Assembly (NCBI GenBank): GCA_903846015.1
Contig: CAIMZS010000360.1
Location: 1-37,666 of the forward strand
Length of the DNA: 37,666 nt
Reading direction: 5' to 3'
Source: an uncultured Anaerolineae bacterium
Lineage (GTDB): Bacteria; Chloroflexota; Anaerolineae; Anaerolineales; Villigracilaceae
Of this stretch, positions 15,645 through 37,666 are shown one piece after another (within the stretch, counting starts at the first letter, position 1; each line of letters starts with the position of its first letter). The notes beneath the pieces were generated by a model that was given only the letters and a program-made list of their open reading frames with translations, did not search any database and was not told the DNA's origin. A program made the translations under genes and the position numbers.

Positions 15645-15665
15645 GAATGAGTGGAGCATCATGAC

Positions 15666-16478
15666 ATGAAACGATTATTATTTATACTAGGAATTACCTT
15701 CACCTTTTTACTGCTGGCAAGCGCGTCTTTTACGGCTGTGCGGGCATCTGAGCCCCAGCAAAACCTCGTTACCCCCACACCCGGGCCCGATGGACGCATC
15801 CTGTACACTGTACAGAGTGGACAAAACTGTACCCAGATCGCCTTGCTGGCAGGTATCACCATCTTTCAACTGCGTACTCTGAACAATTTGGATGAAATCT
15901 GCACACTGAGAGTCGGCCAGAAGCTATTGATCGGCATGGGTGGACCATCCGGCGGGCCACCAACCAGCAGCGCACCAGTAGCCAGCGCCACCCCACAGCA
16001 AGCAGCTACACCAACACCATCCGTTGGAGAAGCCTCCGTCTGCGTTCTGTTATATGAAGACATTAATGGTGACGCTTTGCGCGAGGATACCGAAGTAGCC
16101 ATTCCCAACGGCGCAGTCAGTGTGACAGGCACGTCCGGGCAGTTTTCACAAACTGCAGCCACAACGGCTGGAACCGACCCGATTTGTTTTGATAAAGTTT
16201 TACAGGGCACTTACAACATATCCGTTGCCGCCCCCGAAGGTTATAACGCTACCACACAGCAAAACTACACACTGGATATTAAGATCGGTGAACAAATTTA
16301 CGTTGATTTTGGTGCGCAGCTGGGCGGGAAAGCCAAGCCGCAGGATCCTGCGACTGAACCTGGCTCAAACAATTTACTCGGCATTGCCGGAGGAGCGTTG
16401 GTGCTGGTAGGGATCGGATTGGGACTTTATGCCTGGCTGGTATATGGACGGAAATCAAAATATAATGACCTGGGTTAA
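15666..16478 (+). CDS. Secreted LysM protein with SdrD/Cna-B-like domain and C-terminal anchor
   Basis: A 270-residue envelope protein. Signal peptide 1-28, then a LysM peptidoglycan-binding domain (about 45-92: YTVQSGQNCTQIALLAGITIFQLRTLNNL...VGQKLLIG), a Pro/Thr/Ala linker, and a domain starting VCVLLYEDINGDALREDTE, which matches the acidic (Y/F)-x-D-x-N-x-D-G start of SdrD-B/Cna-B Ig-like domains that often bind calcium. A single C-terminal membrane helix (about 236-258) with a basic end (YGRKSKYNDLG) anchors it. No LPXTG is present. The start is ATG 15666 with GGAG nine bases upstream; an earlier in-frame GTG (15651) is less likely. Confidence 0.82.
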   Translation: MKRLLFILGITFTFLLLASASFTAVRASEPQQNLVTPTPGPDGRILYTVQSGQNCTQIALLAGITIFQLRTLNNLDEICTLRVGQKLLIGMGGPSGGPPTSSAPVASATPQQAATPTPSVGEASVCVLLYEDINGDALREDTEVAIPNGAVSVTGTSGQFSQTAATTAGTDPICFDKVLQGTYNISVAAPEGYNATTQQNYTLDIKIGEQIYVDFGAQLGGKAKPQDPATEPGSNNLLGIAGGALVLVGIGLGLYAWLVYGRKSKYNDLG

Positions 16479-28969: not shown

Positions 28970-29989
28970 ATGCAGACCATTTATACTTTCGTTCCGTCTC
29001 CCGAACACCACTTTCCCGACCATCCCGAAGCGCCTGCCCGGCTGGAACTGCTTGAACTGGCAGCCAACCCCGCTGCCCAGCCGTTCCCCTTTTCGATAGC
29101 CCGGACGGCTGACGTGACACGTGTCCATCCTGCCAGCATGCTCGAACGATTGCAATCAGCTTGCATGGATGGGCCTGGGCTAATCGACCCGGCCCCAACG
29201 TATGTAACGGCCGAATCTTACGACGCTGCCATGCTGGCGGCAGGGGCCTCGCTTGCAGCCACTCGCGCCGTCGTGAGCGGACAGGCACGCAACGCCTTTG
29301 CAATCGTCCGCCCACCGGGTCACCATGCCGAGCCGCTGCACCCAATGGGCTTTTGCCTGCTTAACAATGTCGCTATCGCCGCACAGGATGCCCTGGCTGA
29401 CGGCCTGGAACGGGTGATGGTGGTCGATTACGATGCGCATCACGGCAACGGCACCGAAAAGGCATTTTGGACTGAAGCCCGCGCGGGCTATTTTTCCACC
29501 CATCAGGAAAATATCTACCCGGGCAGCGGCAGCCTGCAGGGCGCACCGCACGCAAAGGGGCGTATCGCCGATTTTCCGCTGCCAGCACGCAGCGGCGACA
29601 AATGCTTTGTGCGCATCTTTGACGAGGTGCTTGCACCGCTGGTCAGAGCCTTCAAACCAGGCCTGCTGTTGGTCTCTGCTGGTTTTGATGCGCACTGGAG
29701 CGACCCGCTCACCTCGCTTGGGCTTTCCACCTCCGGGTATTACGCCATCTCGAAGAAGCTGGTTGACCTGGCGGATGAGCTGTGCAATGGCAGGATCGTA
29801 TTTGTGCTGGAGGGTGGTTATGATCCCCGCAACGTGGCCAATGGCATCCAGGCCGTTTTTGCTGCGCTGAGCCACACCTCGCCTGGAACCAGCAGCCAAC
29901 CGCTCAACCCCACCGACCCATCACCTTACCCCGAGCCGGATATCAGCAAACGAATCGAAGCCTTCAAAAACTGGCACAGTTTGCAGTAG
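28970..29989 (+). CDS. HDAC-family zinc deacetylase (acetylpolyamine/acetoin-type amidohydrolase)
   Basis: A 339-residue arginase/deacetylase-fold enzyme that removes acetyl groups from lysines, polyamines or related amines. All active-site elements are visible: RPPGHHAEP with the His118-His119 pair, VVDYDAHHGNGT with zinc ligands Asp155 and His157, AGFDAHWSDPL with zinc ligand Asp240, and EGGYD with the transition-state Tyr284. The C-terminus has a Pro-rich tail. Bacterial members usually act on acetylpolyamines or acetylated proteins; the substrate is not readable. The start is ATG 28970; another ATG four bases earlier is out of frame. There is no ribosome site. Confidence 0.93.
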   Translation: MQTIYTFVPSPEHHFPDHPEAPARLELLELAANPAAQPFPFSIARTADVTRVHPASMLERLQSACMDGPGLIDPAPTYVTAESYDAAMLAAGASLAATRAVVSGQARNAFAIVRPPGHHAEPLHPMGFCLLNNVAIAAQDALADGLERVMVVDYDAHHGNGTEKAFWTEARAGYFSTHQENIYPGSGSLQGAPHAKGRIADFPLPARSGDKCFVRIFDEVLAPLVRAFKPGLLLVSAGFDAHWSDPLTSLGLSTSGYYAISKKLVDLADELCNGRIVFVLEGGYDPRNVANGIQAVFAALSHTSPGTSSQPLNPTDPSPYPEPDISKRIEAFKNWHSLQ

Positions 29990-30033: not shown

Positions 30034-30069
30034 ACAAGGCTGAAGCGGTTAGTTGCGCTCCAGCCTTGT
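30034..30069. terminator. Hairpin between the converging deacetylase and giant-cytochrome genes
   Basis: ACAAGGCTGAAGCG pairs with CGCTCCAGCCTTGT over 14 positions with one mismatch, around an eight-base loop. It sits 45 bases after the deacetylase stop and 24 bases after the end of the minus-strand giant gene; neither side has a long T-run. Confidence 0.65.
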
Positions 30070-30092: not shown

Positions 30093-33000
30093 CTACGGAT
30101 AAGTGAAGTTATTGTGGTTTTGCCCGTGGCAGCTCAACGTGCAAGACTTGGTGGTGAAATTAATGGCAGTCAGGCTGTTACGTCCACCCGTAAAGGTGAC
30201 GTGGGCGGTGTTGAAGTTGACCAGGCGCTGGTTGGCGCTGCCGTGGCTGTCGTGACAATCGTAACAGGCAGCAAATTCATGGGTCTGGTGCAGACCATAA
30301 TTTCGGTCATTGGCGCCGTCTACATAAGTAGCATACTGGTGACACTTGAAACACAGCTCACCGGTATTATGGATCGCATTGGTATTGTTATTGTCCGCAG
30401 TGATATAAGCAGCGGTTCCGGCCAAAATGTGCAGGTTCGGTGAGCCATGCGGACCAGTGGCAGCAGCGTTGGTGTGGCAATCCGAACAGTATACCCGGCT
30501 GGTAGGCGTCCAGGGTGCCACGAAGGTATTCGCCAGGACGGTGGTATTCCGGCCCGCGGCGGCTACCGGATGGAAACTGGCAGTGGCATTCCCGGTTGCC
30601 GGATTGAACTCACTGGCCAGATCACGGCTTTCGCTCAGTTGTGACGTGCTGGTCAGCTTGGCAAGCCCGGTCGGTGCGTAAGTGGGCAGGTTGGTGTAAC
30701 TGGAATGGCACTTGAAACATACCTGGTACTCATTGACAGCCTGTGAAAGGAAGTTGAAACCCGTCGGTGCGCCGCCTGTCGCAGGCCAAATTGGGTCGAC
30801 GCCGGTTGCGCCACGCTGCGAGAGCTTGATGGCAGGCGCAGTGGCAGTGTTCGGATAGGCGTCGATATGCGCTTCATGACAGTCACCGCACTCGACATGC
30901 CGGCTGGGTCCAGCTGCAAAGCTGCTGCCAAAGATTTCCTTGCCGTGATTCAGCCCGGTATCCACACTGACATTGTGCTCGTAGATACTCGTGGCAGTAT
31001 TGGTAGTAATGGGATACGAGAATGAGGTCTCGATCGGGCGTCCGGGCCCGGCAGCGCCGTGGCAGCCAAAGCAGAAGCGTTCCTCCTGCAGCATCGCGTC
31101 CGGCGCAGTCTGTGCGGTCATATTCCAGGGCGCCAGCAGCTTGAGCTTGTTTGAACCATGCCCGCTGTCGTGACAATCGATACAGGTGCCTTTAAAGCTT
31201 CCCACCAGCAAATTATGCCGCGCAGAAGCCCACAGGCTGCTGATGGAAGGCACGACCTTTTTATCACTGAACGGCGTGGTGTTTCCGGCGCGTCCATTGG
31301 CGTCGTGGCAGGACGTGCAGAAGTTCTCAAAATCAGCCGGGTCATCAGTGGAGTTAATCACTGGGCTGAGAGTGTAAACCGTGGCGGGCGTATCCACATT
31401 GAACAGACGCACACTGCCAGATTTATGCTGGGTCATTTCGTGGCAGACCTGACAGTCGGCATCCGTCACGGCATCACTGCCGGTGATGTGATGCGAGCTG
31501 CGCGTGAAGTCACCACCGCTCGCGCCCACGATCTGCCGGCGTCCACCCGGCGGGACGTTATCGCCATTATCCTGGGGCTGGGAGTGGCAGGCGCGGCAGC
31601 CAGTCATAAACCCATCACGCGTGGAAGCGTTGGCATCCAGGCTGTGTGGGTGGCAGTTAATACAGTTCAGCCCGCGATAATCCGCCCCAGAAAAATGAAT
31701 ACCACCATTGTGCAGCGCCATCGGGTAGCCCGGGTTGCTGCTGTTGGAATGGCAGGTAACGCACAGATCATCGCTGTTGGCAGCTGCGCCTCCATCCAGA
31801 GGCGCCGGTCCATCAATCTCATCAAATGAATTCGCGCCGGTGGTGCTCGTGAAAGTTACATCGGCCTTGAGCAGCGGGCTGATGGTGATGCGCACGCCAG
31901 AATAAGCGTCATCCGTGCTTATGCCAGGATTATCAGGAACGCGAATAGCAGAAAGATTTGTACCACCATGCGGGTCATGACACTGCACGCACAACAGTTC
32001 AAATTGGGCCGGTTCCACGCGCGAAACAGAGTTACCCGGCCAATCGATATTGGAATGAGTCGAAACCGTTGGCGCGCCGTCGCTGCCAGTGCTGTGGCAG
32101 CTCATGCAGAAAGTATTCGAAGCCAGCGGCGACTGGTTGGAATTCAGGAGCGAGCCGCTCTGCCCGGTATGCGGCAGGTGGCAAATGGCGCACTTATCGG
32201 TTGTGCTTGTAAAGTTATAATGCGGGTTATCAAAGGAAAGCACGGTAAGCGTAATACTGGCCTGTGCTGTGCGCCCGTAGACATCCGTGACGCTGGCCGT
32301 GATGGTATGCATACCTGGGCTGAGCGAGCTAGTCGCAAAGCTGGCCCCACTGCCAATCGTACCGTCCAGGCTGGAGGTCCACTGCAAACTTCCGCTGATA
32401 TTGCCGTTGGTGGGGACAATCGCAGAACCCATCAACATGATGATGGTGTTCTGGTTGACAGTGGAACCGTTCAACGGAGTGATGATGCTGACCACCGGCA
32501 GTTGTGAACTAAAGGTGGATATAACCTGGGCAGCCGCGCTAATAATACTGGGCGATATTGCCATCACGCGCCAGGTATAGGTGGTGCCGGGAGTAAGCCC
32601 ACTGGCGTTATAGGTAACGATATTCGCAGCGGTCTGAGTCACCAGGTTGTAGGTCAGACCATCCGTGGAGTTGTAGATCAGGAAACCAGTTTCGTTGGAT
32701 GAGTTATCTGTCCAATTCAGCGTTAAAGATGTATTTTGAAGATTGCTAATACTCAGGCCGCCTGGAGCATTGAGGACTGGAGCCGAGCTCTGAGCGCCTT
32801 CGTTGACCGCCTGTACACGCCAATAAAGGTTGCTTCCCGCAGCCAGGCCGCTGACGGCATAGGCTGTGGCATCGACCGCAGCGCCGGCCACAAAATTCCA
32901 ATTAACACCGTCGGGTGAGTCGTAAACGGCATACCCGGTTTCATTGGTGGCGTTATCCTGCCAGGTCAGGTTAAGAGTCGTGCCAGTGATGGTGTTCACG

Positions 33001-36000
33001 TTCAAAGCGGTCACTGCGGCAGGAACCGGCAGCGGGGTGAAATTCCACTGCTGCCCACTGACAGGTCGCGTGGCAAGGCTGGCCAGCTCGGGGGTGGTAA
33101 GGGTCGGGCAGGTCGCAGCCGCGGCTGGGATGCTTTGCATGGAGCGGTAGACACCCGAGTTGAAACCGGTCAGACCAATCGAAGCACTGCCAGTGGCGGG
33201 ATCGGTACTGAGGGCGGGGAGGCCATACATAAAACGAACCACGCCTGTGTTCTCAAACAACACCACGCGGAAGTTGATATTGGGAGTGGTGTTACTCCAG
33301 GTCCAGTTCCACCATTCAATGGTGAATATACGGTTGGGGGTCGTGCCGGAGGTGGTATAACGCGCGGTGCCGCCCGTACCATTCAAGTCATCCCACAGTG
33401 GAGCGATGATCGGTCGGGCAGTTCCACCGGTGGTGTCCAAACTATTGATGGCGTAATTGTTTGCGCCCGGGCTGCTGAGTGAGATCCAGCCGTTGGAACT
33501 GGCATATACCTGGGTATAACGTGTGCCCATATACCAGAAATCGAAACCGATATTGAGCGCGCCAGAAACCGCATTATCCGCCTGGATGGCGGCAATATTC
33601 GTACCATTGAGCTCGGTGGTGTAAGCAGCCGCTGAGCAGGTCAGGCTGTAATTGGCGAGGTTGGCATTGGCTGCATCGGCAGCCATTATATAGATAGTGT
33701 CAGGGATCAAACCAGCGTCTGGGGTGGCAGTTTCGGTGGGGGGCAGCGCAGTGATACGCGGCGTGGGTGTTACCAGGCCGGTCGATGTGTAAGAGAGTGC
33801 ATCATAAGCGCGCGGCAAGCCATAGCCAAAGTTATCGTCACGCCCGGCCTGACCCAGGTCACGGGCCGTATTGACCAACGCCGCGCGAATTTTGTCGGGG
33901 CTGTCGAACTGCGGCTGGCTGGCAAGCAGGGCTGCAATACCCGTCACCTGTGCCGCCGACATGGAGGAACCGCTCATCAAACCATAAACGCCGCCAGGCA
34001 TCGTCGACTGGATGCCCACCCCAGGAGCGGCAAGCTCAACATACGAGCCATAAGAAGCAAAGGAAGCCTGATCAAAATTAAGATCGAGCCCCGCAACGGC
34101 AATGACATGCGGGTTGGCGGCCGGGTACAGGCTGATGCTGCTGGACCGGTTACCAGCCGCGGCGATCACGGTCACGTTATGAGCATAGGCATAGTCAGTG
34201 GCAGCCAGAAGCGCTGCGCTGTTTTGCTCACCGCCGAGACCCAGGTTGATAATCTTTGCACCGTGATCAACTGCATACACAATCGCCTCAGCCACCTGGG
34301 CAGACGAACCCTTGCCAGTATCATCCAATGCCTTGAGCACCATCAGACTGGAGGCAGGGGCAATACCAGCAATGCCCTGGCTGTTATCCATGCGGGCTGC
34401 GATCAGGCCGGCAGCGTGGGTGCCGTGGCCATGCAAATCTGAAACATCAGAACTGCTGGTCAGGAAGTTCCAACCCTGCCCATTGTCAACATAGCCATCG
34501 CCATCGTCATCCACACCATTGGAGCGTTTATCCTTGCCATTCGCATCAGTGCCGGTTTCTCCGGGATTGACCCACAGGCTGGCAGACAGTTCCGGGTGGG
34601 TCATGTCTACGCCGGTATCAATGATGGCGACCAGACTGTTTTCACCGTGGGTAACATCCCAGGCTTGCGGGATTTGCATATCAGCGTAATAGGTTTGGCT
34701 GACAAAATCCGGGTCATTCGGTGCATAGAATGCCTGCATGACGGAGTCTGGCTCGGCATATGCCACCATCAGGTTATTTTGTAAATCCTGCAACAGTTGG
34801 GGGGCCTGCCTGGCAGAAACACTGATAATGGTTAGACCCAATTGGCTAATTTCAGATTCGATCCGCGCGCCAGCGTTCTTAATGATCAGATCGGAGATGA
34901 GCGCAGGCACCAGGCTGCCAAACTTGACCAGCAGGCGGGTCTGGCTGTTGGTTTGCGGTTCGCTGGTCGGGATTTCAGGGATGGCAGTCGGTGTGGCAGT
35001 GGCGGGCTCAGACGTGGGGACCACAGGGGTCTCGCTCGGGGGGACAGCCGTGAGAGTCGCTGTGCTGGCTGCGATAGTGCCGGTACTAGCAAGGCTGGGC
35101 GTCTCACTCGGGGTGGCGGCAATGTTGTCTGGTGTGCTGGTGGCAAAAACATCACTGGCAACGGGAGTCGCGCTCAAGGTGGGCAGAACCGTCAGCGTCA
35201 TGGTCGCCGGGATGGCTGTACTGGTGGATTCAGGCGTCCCGCTCACCAGAGTTTCGCTCTGGGTGGGCTGGATGAGCGCTGTAGACTGCGGAGTCTGGCT
35301 GGGCATGGATGTGGCTGTCGATACCGCAGTGGGGCTGTTGGTTGGGGTAACAAACTGGCCGGGGTAGTCGATCTGCAAATAATAATACACCAGGGCACTG
35401 GCACGGCTTTCATCCTTAGCTGCGTTTGCCAGGGCCGTTGGATCAGCCGTTTGCACGTGGGTGACCGTTTCAATGTAATCGACGGTGGAATGACAGGCCG
35501 GATCAAACTGCGCGGCAACTTCCTTCCAGGTGGCATTGCTGCTGAGGGCGCGCGCGCGCGCCAGGGCGTTGGTGAGACAACCCGGACCGGCATTGTAGCC
35601 GGCCAGTGCAAAGCGCCACAGCATGTTCTGCCCAGGAGATGATTTTCCCAGGTTATCCGTCAACCATTTGGCATGAGTGTAATTAGCGCGCAGCACCTCA
35701 GCAATGGTGTTGATACTGCGCCGCGCAACTTGCAAACTTAAACCGCCGCGGCAATTGGAGCAGTCGGTGTTCAACTGCTGCATGACCATGCCACGCAAGG
35801 CTGCCTGTTGATCGACGGGCATAAACACGAAGGGTTTTTTGCAAGTATCCGGGCCAAAGACCGCCGGACAGATACCGGCTTCGTAGGCCGGGTTCCAGCG
35901 CAGCAGGGTATCCGCGCCCATCTCGGTCACGTGGCCCAGGCCCATTTCGGAATAACCATAAACTGTCGGACGGCTGGTCGGCCAAAACTGGGTTTCCTGC

Positions 36001-36431
36001 GCCAGCACGTTCTTGAGCAGGAAAGGCGGCACACCGCTCCGGTTGGATGCGTCAAGAATGGCCCTGTCGAACTGGTTTTGCCAGACAATCACGGCTGGTC
36101 GGGCTGCAATTTCACCGCATGGATTGGCGGCCCCATTTTTCAACAGCCCGTTATTCGGGCAGCCGCTGGCGTCCACCAATCCATTCAGGATCAATTTTCC
36201 GGCCAACAGTACCAGCGAGCGGTCTGAAGCCAGGGCTGAGGCGTTGGTGGGGAAAGAAAGCCAACCGTAATCCACCCCAGAGCCAGCTTCAGGTGTGGGA
36301 GCAGCCTGGGCCAATAAACCTCCGGCCTGAACCGGAAGGGTAAATACAGTTTGGAAAACGAAAAAAGCCATCAAACTGAGGTTGATGGTAAGAATAATGA
36401 AACCCTTTAGCGAGCTGATTGGACGTTTCAA
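30093..36431 (-). CDS. Giant secreted fusion: lytic-transglycosylase-like + subtilase + FN3 + multiheme c-type cytochrome
   Basis: A 2112-residue exported protein. Order: signal peptide (1-36, ending VQA); SLT-like lysozyme-fold domain (about 110-330; Glu146 in LAQETQFW, then ALAGYNAGPG); Ser/Thr/Pro linker (360-495); subtilase prodomain-like segment (497-570); S8 catalytic domain with Asp605 (IIDTGVD), a Ca-binding-like acidic loop (637-650), His669 (HGHGTH), Asn761 and Ser823 (SGSSMS); NIDO-like beta-sandwich (about 910-1110); two FN3 domains (1137-1310); Ig-like domain (1310-1400); then 700 residues with 15 CXXCH motifs and a final CX3CH, each a potential covalent heme site. The protease triad and heme motifs are intact and no stop interrupts the frame. 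The start is TTG at 36429-36431, overlapping a stop codon, with only a weak GGTG upstream; an ATG 20 codons inside would truncate the signal peptide. The hexaheme gene lies upstream in the same direction. Confidence 0.93.
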   Translation of the reverse strand: MKRPISSLKGFIILTINLSLMAFFVFQTVFTLPVQAGGLLAQAAPTPEAGSGVDYGWLSFPTNASALASDRSLVLLAGKLILNGLVDASGCPNNGLLKNGAANPCGEIAARPAVIVWQNQFDRAILDASNRSGVPPFLLKNVLAQETQFWPTSRPTVYGYSEMGLGHVTEMGADTLLRWNPAYEAGICPAVFGPDTCKKPFVFMPVDQQAALRGMVMQQLNTDCSNCRGGLSLQVARRSINTIAEVLRANYTHAKWLTDNLGKSSPGQNMLWRFALAGYNAGPGCLTNALARARALSSNATWKEVAAQFDPACHSTVDYIETVTHVQTADPTALANAAKDESRASALVYYYLQIDYPGQFVTPTNSPTAVSTATSMPSQTPQSTALIQPTQSETLVSGTPESTSTAIPATMTLTVLPTLSATPVASDVFATSTPDNIAATPSETPSLASTGTIAASTATLTAVPPSETPVVPTSEPATATPTAIPEIPTSEPQTNSQTRLLVKFGSLVPALISDLIIKNAGARIESEISQLGLTIISVSARQAPQLLQDLQNNLMVAYAEPDSVMQAFYAPNDPDFVSQTYYADMQIPQAWDVTHGENSLVAIIDTGVDMTHPELSASLWVNPGETGTDANGKDKRSNGVDDDGDGYVDNGQGWNFLTSSSDVSDLHGHGTHAAGLIAARMDNSQGIAGIAPASSLMVLKALDDTGKGSSAQVAEAIVYAVDHGAKIINLGLGGEQNSAALLAATDYAYAHNVTVIAAAGNRSSSISLYPAANPHVIAVAGLDLNFDQASFASYGSYVELAAPGVGIQSTMPGGVYGLMSGSSMSAAQVTGIAALLASQPQFDSPDKIRAALVNTARDLGQAGRDDNFGYGLPRAYDALSYTSTGLVTPTPRITALPPTETATPDAGLIPDTIYIMAADAANANLANYSLTCSAAAYTTELNGTNIAAIQADNAVSGALNIGFDFWYMGTRYTQVYASSNGWISLSSPGANNYAINSLDTTGGTARPIIAPLWDDLNGTGGTARYTTSGTTPNRIFTIEWWNWTWSNTTPNINFRVVLFENTGVVRFMYGLPALSTDPATGSASIGLTGFNSGVYRSMQSIPAAAATCPTLTTPELASLATRPVSGQQWNFTPLPVPAAVTALNVNTITGTTLNLTWQDNATNETGYAVYDSPDGVNWNFVAGAAVDATAYAVSGLAAGSNLYWRVQAVNEGAQSSAPVLNAPGGLSISNLQNTSLTLNWTDNSSNETGFLIYNSTDGLTYNLVTQTAANIVTYNASGLTPGTTYTWRVMAISPSIISAAAQVISTFSSQLPVVSIITPLNGSTVNQNTIIMLMGSAIVPTNGNISGSLQWTSSLDGTIGSGASFATSSLSPGMHTITASVTDVYGRTAQASITLTVLSFDNPHYNFTSTTDKCAICHLPHTGQSGSLLNSNQSPLASNTFCMSCHSTGSDGAPTVSTHSNIDWPGNSVSRVEPAQFELLCVQCHDPHGGTNLSAIRVPDNPGISTDDAYSGVRITISPLLKADVTFTSTTGANSFDEIDGPAPLDGGAAANSDDLCVTCHSNSSNPGYPMALHNGGIHFSGADYRGLNCINCHPHSLDANASTRDGFMTGCRACHSQPQDNGDNVPPGGRRQIVGASGGDFTRSSHHITGSDAVTDADCQVCHEMTQHKSGSVRLFNVDTPATVYTLSPVINSTDDPADFENFCTSCHDANGRAGNTTPFSDKKVVPSISSLWASARHNLLVGSFKGTCIDCHDSGHGSNKLKLLAPWNMTAQTAPDAMLQEERFCFGCHGAAGPGRPIETSFSYPITTNTATSIYEHNVSVDTGLNHGKEIFGSSFAAGPSRHVECGDCHEAHIDAYPNTATAPAIKLSQRGATGVDPIWPATGGAPTGFNFLSQAVNEYQVCFKCHSSYTNLPTYAPTGLAKLTSTSQLSESRDLASEFNPATGNATASFHPVAAAGRNTTVLANTFVAPWTPTSRVYCSDCHTNAAATGPHGSPNLHILAGTAAYITADNNNTNAIHNTGELCFKCHQYATYVDGANDRNYGLHQTHEFAACYDCHDSHGSANQRLVNFNTAHVTFTGGRNSLTAINFTTKSCTLSCHGQNHNNFTYP

Positions 36432-36614: not shown

Positions 36615-37559
36615 TTATTTGTTATGACAGCTCTGGCAAACGCCGCGGTTGTCAACACGCAGTAAAGCGCTGTCGCCAGCAAGACTTGCGCTGTTCGCCA
36701 GCGCGGTCATTGCAGCGGATGATCCGTGTGCCACATGGCATGAAGTACAGGCCAGGCCATTAGGCGCGAGAACGGATGCAGCAGCATTGGTGGTATGCCG
36801 GTACATGAAGACCGCATCACCAGAGTTTGTGCTGCCGGAACCCGTAACGGTCAGGTTGCGGGTGTGACACTGCGAACACCAGTTGGTCAGCCCGGTCGAT
36901 TGGGCGGCAGCATAGGTCTGGGTGAAGTAGTTCCCAGTATTGGATGCGATGGAGTAAGTCTTGGCAACCTGGTCAGGGATCTCAACAGACGCGGTCAATG
37001 TCACGCCGGTGGGCTGTCCACGCAAGATACGATAGGTAGCGGTTTTTCCGGTACCTGTCTTGCCGTGCGGGTCATGACAGTTCATACAGCTCAGAGCAGT
37101 GCTAGCCTGACCGTTGTTGACCGTGGCGCTGATGGGACCATAAGACCAGACAGTTCCGGTTGTGCCAGTATAGATGTGCGATGATGTTGTAGTGACAGAA
37201 CCAACCGTGGTATCCAGGTTCGTATCCATCAAAGCAGCGCCAAAACCACCTGCCAGCAAACCGCGCCCTGGAACACCTTCGACAGGAGATTCGGTCGTAA
37301 GGTCACGCGCAGTATAGACACCGTCAATGACGTTGGTATCCGCACCTGTGCCGGTTTGGCCGTGACAGGCAGTACAAATCAAGTATCCAGCGCCGGTTAA
37401 CAGCTTGGGGCCAGTTGCGGTATGGGTACGGTGACAGCTGGCACAGGCATCCGTCGTCAGCGTAAATCCGCCGTGCGGGCCATTGTCAGCCAGGGCTGTG
37501 CCGGTGACGAGCAGCGTCAATGTAAAGACCAGCACAAGGGTGAAAAGCATTTTTTTCAT
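36615..37559 (-). CDS. Secreted hexaheme c-type cytochrome (paired CXXCH type)
   Basis: A 314-residue protein. The signal peptide (1-24, KKMLFTLVLVFTLTLLVTGTALA) is followed by a mature chain with six CXXCH motifs at residues 39, 62, 158, 228, 271 and 308 (CASCH, CTACH, CMNCH, CSQCH, CTSCH, CQSCH). The spacing in loose pairs and the CHDPHG and CHVAHG context are typical of the doubled-CXXCH cytochrome domain. A Thr/Ser/Gly-rich loop (about 100-155) separates the first two motifs from the others. It should be heme-loaded after export and act in electron transfer at the cell surface. The ribosome site GAAGGAG is eight bases before the ATG. It ends 183 bases before the giant gene and is probably cotranscribed. 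Confidence 0.93.
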   Translation of the reverse strand: MKKMLFTLVLVFTLTLLVTGTALADNGPHGGFTLTTDACASCHRTHTATGPKLLTGAGYLICTACHGQTGTGADTNVIDGVYTARDLTTESPVEGVPGRGLLAGGFGAALMDTNLDTTVGSVTTTSSHIYTGTTGTVWSYGPISATVNNGQASTALSCMNCHDPHGKTGTGKTATYRILRGQPTGVTLTASVEIPDQVAKTYSIASNTGNYFTQTYAAAQSTGLTNWCSQCHTRNLTVTGSGSTNSGDAVFMYRHTTNAAASVLAPNGLACTSCHVAHGSSAAMTALANSASLAGDSALLRVDNRGVCQSCHNK

Positions 37560-37624
37560 GGTTCATTCTCCTTCAAAACATATTCGCGCGCGCTAAAACG
37601 GAAGATTCCTTTTTTATTCTTCAA
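37556..37624 (-). CDS. Possible 22-codon leader peptide upstream of the hexaheme gene
   Basis: A TTG codon (37622-37624) lies ten bases after a full AAAGGAGGTGA ribosome site (GGAGG at 37635-37639). It opens a frame of 22 codons rich in Lys, Arg and Glu that ends with TGA overlapping the ATG of the hexaheme gene (ATGA). The geometry suggests translational coupling. Coding status is uncertain: the start is TTG, and the strong site might instead belong to a different start or be fortuitous. Confidence 0.3.
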   Translation of the reverse strand: MKNKKGIFRFSAREYVLKENEP

Positions 37625-37666
37625 TAATCAGTCACCTCCTTTGATTAATACGGTTTAATAAGACCA

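Follow-up and report, generated by a model that had tools for sequence, protein, structure and literature searches.

We analysed a stretch of DNA of 37,666 nucleotides from an uncultured Anaerolineae bacterium of the Villigracilaceae (GenBank assembly GCA_903846015.1, contig CAIMZS010000360.1, positions 1 to 37,666; the whole stretch is called the window below) and found that it carries, side by side, the gene of a giant protein that joins a lytic transglycosylase (SLT) domain, a subtilase and 16 heme sites, and the gene of a hexaheme cytochrome, P0002, that resembles the nanowire protein OmcS. Both genes belong to a cluster that recurs in other genomes and whose role in electron transfer is well supported. 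We consider it about an even chance (a probability of roughly 0.5) that the giant protein is a secreted, wall-lytic and self-processing partner of an OmcS-type electron wire in a host without an outer membrane.

Architecture of the giant protein

The giant gene is a single frame on the minus strand, running from 36431 to 30093 with a TTG start and encoding 2112 amino acids, in agreement with the uninterrupted 2112-codon frame described in an earlier reading of this DNA (hereafter, the original prediction). Its parts and the features next to it are as follows.

30093..36431, minus strand: giant gene, with signal peptide, SLT, Pro/Thr linker, propeptide, subtilase, FN3/Ig and 16 heme sites
36324..36431, minus strand: signal peptide-like N-terminal segment, residues ~1-36 (by eye from the translation, no predictor)
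35412..36266, minus strand: lytic transglycosylase (SLT, GH23-like), residues 56-340, catalytic Glu146 (Pfam, model, Foldseek)
34941..35339, minus strand: linker rich in Pro/Thr/Ser, residues ~365-497 (translation)
34746..34934, minus strand: subtilase propeptide (Fervidolysin_NPro-like), residues 500-562 (Pfam)
34725..34727, minus strand: Tyr569, predicted first residue after self-cleavage (alignment with thermitase 1thm)
33819..34646, minus strand: subtilase (Peptidase_S8), residues 596-871, Asp605/His669/Ser823 (Pfam)
32547..33044, minus strand: two FN3 domains, residues ~1130-1295, best 1222-1293, outer limits approximate (Pfam)
32232..32519, minus strand: Ig-like domain, residues ~1305-1400, limits approximate (weak Pfam match)
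32067..32225, minus strand: first diheme segment, residues 1403-1455, PH...CxxCHxxH, resembling the beginning of P0002 (DOCK profile)
31092..31991, minus strand: middle heme region, residues 1481-1780, not in the seven-CXXCH relatives (alignment)
30096..31085, minus strand: octaheme module, C-terminal part, residues 1783-2112, six CXXCH and the CX3CH (family alignment)
30034..30069, minus strand: terminator-like hairpin of 14 pairs, 3' of the giant stop codon
36615..37559, minus strand: OmcS-like hexaheme cytochrome P0002, 314 amino acids, exactly 12 His
37526..37666: 141 bases identical to the terminal ones of contig C300

All of the 15 CXXCH motifs and the one CX3CH motif expected in the C-terminal part were located, the former at residues 1414, 1442, 1481, 1557, 1590, 1612, 1660, 1705, 1750, 1787, 1848, 1905, 1982, 2027 and 2056 and the latter at residue 2097. 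The number of CXXCH in residues 1401-2112 compares with 0.08 expected from composition; residues 1-1400 contain none, and multiheme Pfam families match the protein from residue 1411 onward. The two FN3 domains of the original prediction were found as two stretches (Pfam E-value 3.7e-15), whereas the Ig-like domain placed beside them gave only a weak match (Big_13, E-value 0.98).

The subtilase domain matches Peptidase_S8 with an E-value of 1.6e-51, with the expected triad of Asp605, His669 and Ser823 intact and the oxyanion residue Asn761 present, and these four residues are kept in 11 of the 11 aligned proteins having an S8 domain. The propeptide signal lies below the cut-off in the giant protein (E-value 9.6e-4; 19.9 bits vs 21) but is better in relatives, with E-values down to 2e-9, and in an alignment with thermitase (1thm) Tyr569 falls on residue 1, where the mature enzyme begins. 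Self-cleavage of the giant protein, and hence the release by proteolysis proposed earlier, is possible, and a cut near 568/569 would be most likely because of this alignment of Tyr569.

The lytic-transglycosylase-like domain is distant from the Pfam family (SLT E-value 0.038 with the whole protein), and both its model and Glu146 agree with the assignment made originally. In the family alignment, 13 of 13 members match Pfam SLT at E-values up to 1 (best 1.2e-5), and the sole match of the SLT profile in the PDB is a LysM-type lytic transglycosylase chain (E-value 0.83). The domain model, built with 32 sequences, has a predicted local distance difference test (pLDDT) score of 90.9 and a lysozyme-like fold, its leading Foldseek matches being MltF and MltE (probability 1.00; template modelling score by target up to 0.59). 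Glu146 and Tyr279, representing the catalytic Glu and the YNAG-like motif, are conserved in 12/12 aligned proteins, the window's included; among loci L016-L044, about 10 of which are genes also among these 12, the Glu motif is present in 29/29 and the YNAG-like motif in 26/29. Taken together, the domain is a lytic transglycosylase of a distant branch that retains the catalytic Glu, and the opening of peptidoglycan, as had been suggested, is likely. The domain is nearly universal in the bacterial family, with 142 of the 150 genomes examined (88/88 of the good ones) having it, and most of the SLT matches listed are in open frames of ~550 codons and thus belong to proteins that stand alone. One of these stand-alone SLT proteins is encoded close to two cytochrome c assembly genes, no more than about 10 kb away (L010; G000 C205:59606-60448, 61829-69667). 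The window also holds a second wall-related gene, for a LysM and SdrD_B-like protein (15651-16478).

Relatives were found by domain searches, with 15 stretches taken from the SLT-domain matches listed, in addition to the window and contig C534. These hold 11 complete genes with SLT, S8 and hemes in 10 genomes (the window, L009, L045, L046, L050, L051, L052, L053, L054, L056 and L059), and the window's own genome has a paralog of 1496 amino acids on contig C534. L058 (SLT and S8) is cut by the contig end and L047, L048 and L049 are cut inside the gene, and they were not counted as complete; L055 has SLT and hemes with no subtilase, and L057 is an SLT protein without hemes. The number of CXXCH in the 11 genes is 15, 7 or 5, the last in L046, the giant protein of which is also without an octaheme match. 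A misassembly fusing two or three genes, which had been named as a risk from the outset, would be conceivable in a draft bin of 662 contigs (97.4% complete, 5.85% contamination); however, the same junctions are present in 10 genomes, this one having them in two genes, so that misassembly is excluded for practical purposes and an artefact is hardly credible. Among the papers listed in literature searches, made in a collection with few subscription papers and no preprints, none reported a fusion of SLT, S8 and hemes.

The hairpin behind the giant gene carries little weight by itself, the region having 8 such sites vs 7.4 in shuffles. A gene of the histone deacetylase family (window 28970-29989) is convergent with the giant gene.

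The OmcS-like neighbour and the conserved cluster

The hexaheme gene beside the giant gene was overlooked in the original prediction. The profile of the P0002 family (14 members) has OmcS (6ef8) as its top match in the PDB, with an E-value of 1.4e-10, over nearly the full chain and with the six CXXCH hemes collinear, as expected for homology of the OmcS type; 9yuq (5.5e-8), labelled "putative multiheme cytochrome c" and made up of 16 chains, comes next. Because scores of this kind are raised by heme motifs, the control consisted of OmcS shuffles, 500 keeping CXXCH and 500 keeping all C and H. The true score of 43.5 bits was equalled by 0/500 and 0/500 of them (maximum 31.0), and profiles of five further heme families from the same loci reached at most 18.0 bits on OmcS; with the profile of MHC7m, itself paralogous to the hexaheme family, OmcS likewise scored above all shuffles, at 18.0 bits. 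His46 of P0002, invariant in 14/14 family members, aligns with H16 of OmcS, presumably the donor to heme 5 of the neighbouring subunit. The 12 His of P0002 consist of six in CXXCH and six others, which is the number that bis-histidine ligation of six hemes would need, and OmcS is described as having twelve axial His, one of them from the neighbouring subunit (PMC6584659).

TPR, NHL-propeller and hexaheme genes lie upstream of the giant gene in the same order in all 11 cases, with the giant gene directly behind the trio in 7 and with extra genes between in 4 (L051, L052, L053 and L059). In the case of the window, the TPR and NHL genes are at the end of contig C300, in the same direction, and are linked to it by the exact 141-base overlap. 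Fuller sister clusters also encode decaheme and cytochrome b561-like proteins, an octaheme protein of the membrane that is NapC/NirT-like, a staphylococcal nuclease (SNase) and a nine-heme protein. The membrane cytochromes in the clusters of relatives support the role in extracellular electron transfer that had been predicted for the giant protein. As a homolog of OcwA, the nine-heme gene downstream in relatives was rejected, since it gave only a partial match to 6i5b (E-value 2.4e-6), which we take to be OcwA. A SNase-type gene stands downstream of the giant gene or of an octaheme relative in L045, L046, L050, L054, L056, L059, L068, L072, L080 and L088. In addition, a family of ~190 amino acids recurs in the clusters (L051:6722-7294, L053:5529-6101, L055:6644-7207 and L059:10415-10993), and its member in L059 had no Pfam match.

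The original prediction took the giant protein as a self-installing extracellular conduit; on this reading the giant protein would act alone, outside any wire, and the presence of 16 heme sites together with wall and protease domains in one protein does favour such a view. However, the giant gene is one of a conserved cluster, in constant order with an OmcS-like gene, TPR and NHL and with membrane cytochromes in sister clusters, its versions with seven or five CXXCH would make shorter chains, and the octaheme relatives of other phyla sit with OmcE-like proteins. As it stands, this view is not supported and seems improbable, the preceding OmcS-like hexaheme protein being the better candidate for a wire. 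The SNase gene that follows the giant gene in L045, L046, L050, L054, L056 and L059 could also point to a surface complex that degrades dead or neighbouring cells (peptidoglycan, protein and, via SNase, nucleic acid) and disposes of the electrons on the spot. Such wired digestion appears very improbable, given that no SNase match was found in the window or the C534 stretch and that an SLT family so widespread among the genomes examined is more like a housekeeping wall enzyme.

The same cluster position is occupied in other Chloroflexota by S8-octaheme proteins (L071 and L073) and by octaheme proteins in which neither enzyme domain was found (L063, L074 and L079). The former would suit a maturation protease, that is, a subtilase that mainly processes the cytochromes of the cluster, with the SLT domain as a wall-binding anchor of minor cutting activity; the retained triad and propeptide and the precedent of OmcZ and its protease OzpA (PMC9473688) are in line with this. 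On the other hand, Glu146, which would be superfluous in a mere anchor, is kept in 12/12 proteins, L055 combines SLT and octaheme without S8, and P0002 has no obvious propeptide beyond its signal peptide (by eye in the translation, with no predictor run). We therefore regard a mainly maturing role as rather unlikely.

In the host genome, no Omp85 was found, whereas the same search gave a match in 7 of the 14 controls. The genome encodes cytochrome c assembly proteins. The host thus appears to lack an outer membrane, the wall would be the likely barrier because no Omp85 was found, and a porin-cytochrome conduit like MtrCAB was rejected on the same ground.

The octaheme module and the first diheme segment

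The octaheme module consists of seven CXXCH and one CX3CH. A contig scan gave 97 related stretches, of which 80 were kept and which belong, by record titles, to more than 10 phyla: Chloroflexota, Bacteroidetes, Geobacteraceae and other Deltaproteobacteria, Nitrospirae, Verrucomicrobia, Planctomycetota, Acidobacteria, Calditrichota, Poribacteria, Zixiibacteriota, KSB1, Actinomycetota, Thiodiazotropha and others. Within the order, the distribution is patchy (8/251 genomes; 7/105 genera). At six Geobacteraceae-type loci, a stand-alone octaheme gene follows genes for an NHL protein and a tetraheme protein, and the tetraheme gene of the one locus tested matches 7tfs (E-value 2e-17), labelled only "Cytochrome c" in the PDB search, which we take to be the OmcE wire. 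A domain of the tetraheme family, as detected with our own profile, is fused ahead of the octaheme module in 20 proteins of 540-668 amino acids (L096, L097, L099, L104, L107-L110, L115-L118, L120, L121, L127, L133 and L134, and, as second copies, L086:6059-8065, L095:17936-19744 and L113:17875-19632); the fusion of L110 matches 7tfs with an E-value of 1.4e-23. Adjoining or fused to 7tfs-like tetrahemes in this way, the octaheme module accompanies nanowire-like proteins across phyla, and the OmcE-like tetraheme-octaheme fusion is a possible general end piece of nanowires.

By sequence, the module has no solved relative in the PDB, its top cytochrome (E-value 0.086) ranking beneath two antibody chains. 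Homology of the C-terminal module to OmcZ was rejected, OmcZ not being among the 15 PDB matches. The ECN4 profile gave no signal on OmcS (9.3 bits, with 49/1000 shuffles equally high).

The first diheme segment of the window's giant protein scored 38.0 bits on the DOCK profile vs 5.7 at the next best place, and the likeness to the start of the hexaheme protein holds in 12/12 giant proteins, with 37-58 bits as compared with at most 7.4 elsewhere and at most 22.8 in shuffles. That the segment is a generic doubled CXXCH was rejected, as at least 37 bits were reached by 25/30 Chloroflexota octahemes vs 0/109 other heme proteins, eight loci that repeat counted contigs having been dropped from the background. 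The same level was reached by 1/36 other Chloroflexota heme proteins, namely the giant protein of L046, and by 1/61 octahemes of other phyla; MHC6 (30/30) and MHC7m (4/4), also at this level, are kin by construction or paralogy.

In the octaheme-module tree, made by a quick method with the 80 scan rows and three more (82 kept after the short row L138 was dropped), the label of SLT plus S8 requires 5 changes, at least 3 of them forced by starred branches, with gains and losses not distinguishable.

The scan also brought up other large heme proteins. In Nitrospirae-type records and in those of Geobacteraceae, genes for proteins of ~1050 amino acids with 42 CXXCH lie close to that of the octaheme protein (L101:13934-17083, L106:5060-8194, L122:13934-17173 and L124:13945-17079), and a Coriobacteriia contig has a frame of 2308 amino acids or more, with an open start and 44 CXXCH (L136:2-6928). 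A Bacteroidetes-type clade with the octaheme module (L075, L077, L082-L087, L089, L090 and L119) reaches up to 2307 amino acids and up to 19 CXXCH, with PKD-like domains in L085; no SLT or S8 match was seen in this clade, some frames of which are cut.

Proposed mechanism

We infer the following sequence of events. Quinol-oxidising membrane cytochromes encoded in sister clusters, b561-like with decaheme and NapC-like octaheme, would feed electrons to P0002, perhaps polymerised in the manner of OmcS. The giant protein would be exported and its hemes attached outside, its lytic transglycosylase would cut the peptidoglycan locally and make room, and its subtilase would mature it, so that the wall enzyme comes free of the fragment with protease and hemes. 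The heme part, with the diheme segment first and the octaheme module last, would sit at the end of the wire, at its base or tip, and pass the electrons on. The giant protein is thus perhaps a terminal subunit of an OmcS-type wire. A more specific form of this proposal, in which such a subunit builds its own port by cutting the wall, cutting itself and capping the OmcS-like filament via the first diheme segment, can be put forward only tentatively.

Several results weigh against the proposed partnership with an OmcS-type wire. As for P0002, the eight-heme nitrite reductases (2.7e-7) come ahead of 7tfs (7.1e-6) among the matches of its family profile, the OmcS match has a high composition bias of 29 bits, NCBIfam sees in it doubled-CXXCH or distant decaheme kin with no nanowire name, and its AlphaFold model, with a pLDDT of 38.7, is unusable and offers no filament structure. 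The SLT piece alone, with an E-value of 4.1e-4 and 20.3 bits, did not reach the gathering cut-off of 21.3, and the best Foldseek E-value of its model was 0.024, with none at 0.001 or below. The wall and protease parts are optional because SLT, S8 or both are missing from relatives that hold this place in the cluster; as that place is also taken by octaheme proteins in which neither was found, the two enzymes are add-ons to a common heme module and are dispensable elsewhere. As for the heme part, the octaheme profile found no OmcS, 7tfs or OmcZ among 15 PDB sequences at E-values up to 10, OmcS itself scored 9.6 bits, no match, on the first-diheme profile, and the first diheme segment is shared within Chloroflexota; its putative docking at the end of the wire is the weakest step of the mechanism.

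The conserved cluster links an OmcS-like protein to a giant protein with domains for cutting wall and protein, and so allows the way in which extracellular cytochrome wires start at the cell and pass through the wall to be examined with two purified proteins. If the giant protein is a terminal subunit that builds its own port, it would provide electron wires with a dedicated peptidoglycan enzyme and could form the base or tip of cytochrome nanowires; the octaheme module, which many phyla have in fusion with OmcE-like proteins or next to them, would then be a general end piece. Moreover, the cluster offers the Anaerolineales a definite candidate for a route of extracellular electron transfer, and it directs attention to an octaheme family that neighbours nanowire-like genes in many phyla.

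Comparison with known systems

With the OmcS and OmcE wires of Geobacter, the present system shares a P0002 family collinear with OmcS and octaheme relatives that adjoin or fuse with tetrahemes matching 7tfs; it differs in its octaheme module, which is not a homolog of OmcS or 7tfs by profile, and, to our knowledge, the Geobacter wires have no wall or protease domains. VirB1 and FlgJ are specialised lytic transglycosylases that cut peptidoglycan locally for envelope-spanning machines. The giant protein would resemble them in such local cutting for an envelope-spanning assembly, although they are separate proteins, and we know of no specialised lytic transglycosylase for an electron-transfer system.

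In Geobacter, OmcZ is reported to be processed by the subtilisin-like protease OzpA (PMC9473688), and homologs are described in anaerobic methanotrophic (ANME) archaea, Methanoperedens and Borgs. A subtilisin-like protease is paired there, as here, with an octaheme surface cytochrome, but the two are separate genes in Geobacter and the octaheme module here is unmatched to OmcZ in the PDB. The nearest fusions in the literature examined are the MHC-B giants of ANME archaea, for which an S-layer domain, a peptidase M6-like N-terminus and a role as conduit through the outermost layer are described or proposed (PMC9012536). They likewise join a heme chain to envelope-layer and peptidase-like domains, but with an archaeal S-layer instead of peptidoglycan, an M6-like instead of an S8 peptidase and a C-terminal membrane helix that has no evident counterpart in the giant protein. 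Membership in MHC-B was rejected, as S-layer and M6-like domains are absent among the 13 Pfam families matched by the giant protein at E-values up to 1.

For the Anaerolineales, large multiheme proteins without a porin-cytochrome complex have been described, the probable reason given being that they have no Gram-negative envelope; the relevant section of that report makes no mention of enzyme domains (PMC7399161). In the Gram-positive pathway of Thermincola (ImdcA-PdcA-CwcA-OcwA), decahemes precede the hexaheme OmcS homolog CwcA in extracellular electron transfer, and CwcA is proposed as a wire through peptidoglycan on the basis of a homology model with 18% identity to OmcS (PMC7911101). The main text of that report contains neither "transglycosylase" nor "hydrolase", and no protein joining wall cutting, subtilase and hemes was found there. 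With a host that lacks an outer membrane, as the present one appears to, this wall pathway of Thermincola is the closest published model that we found.

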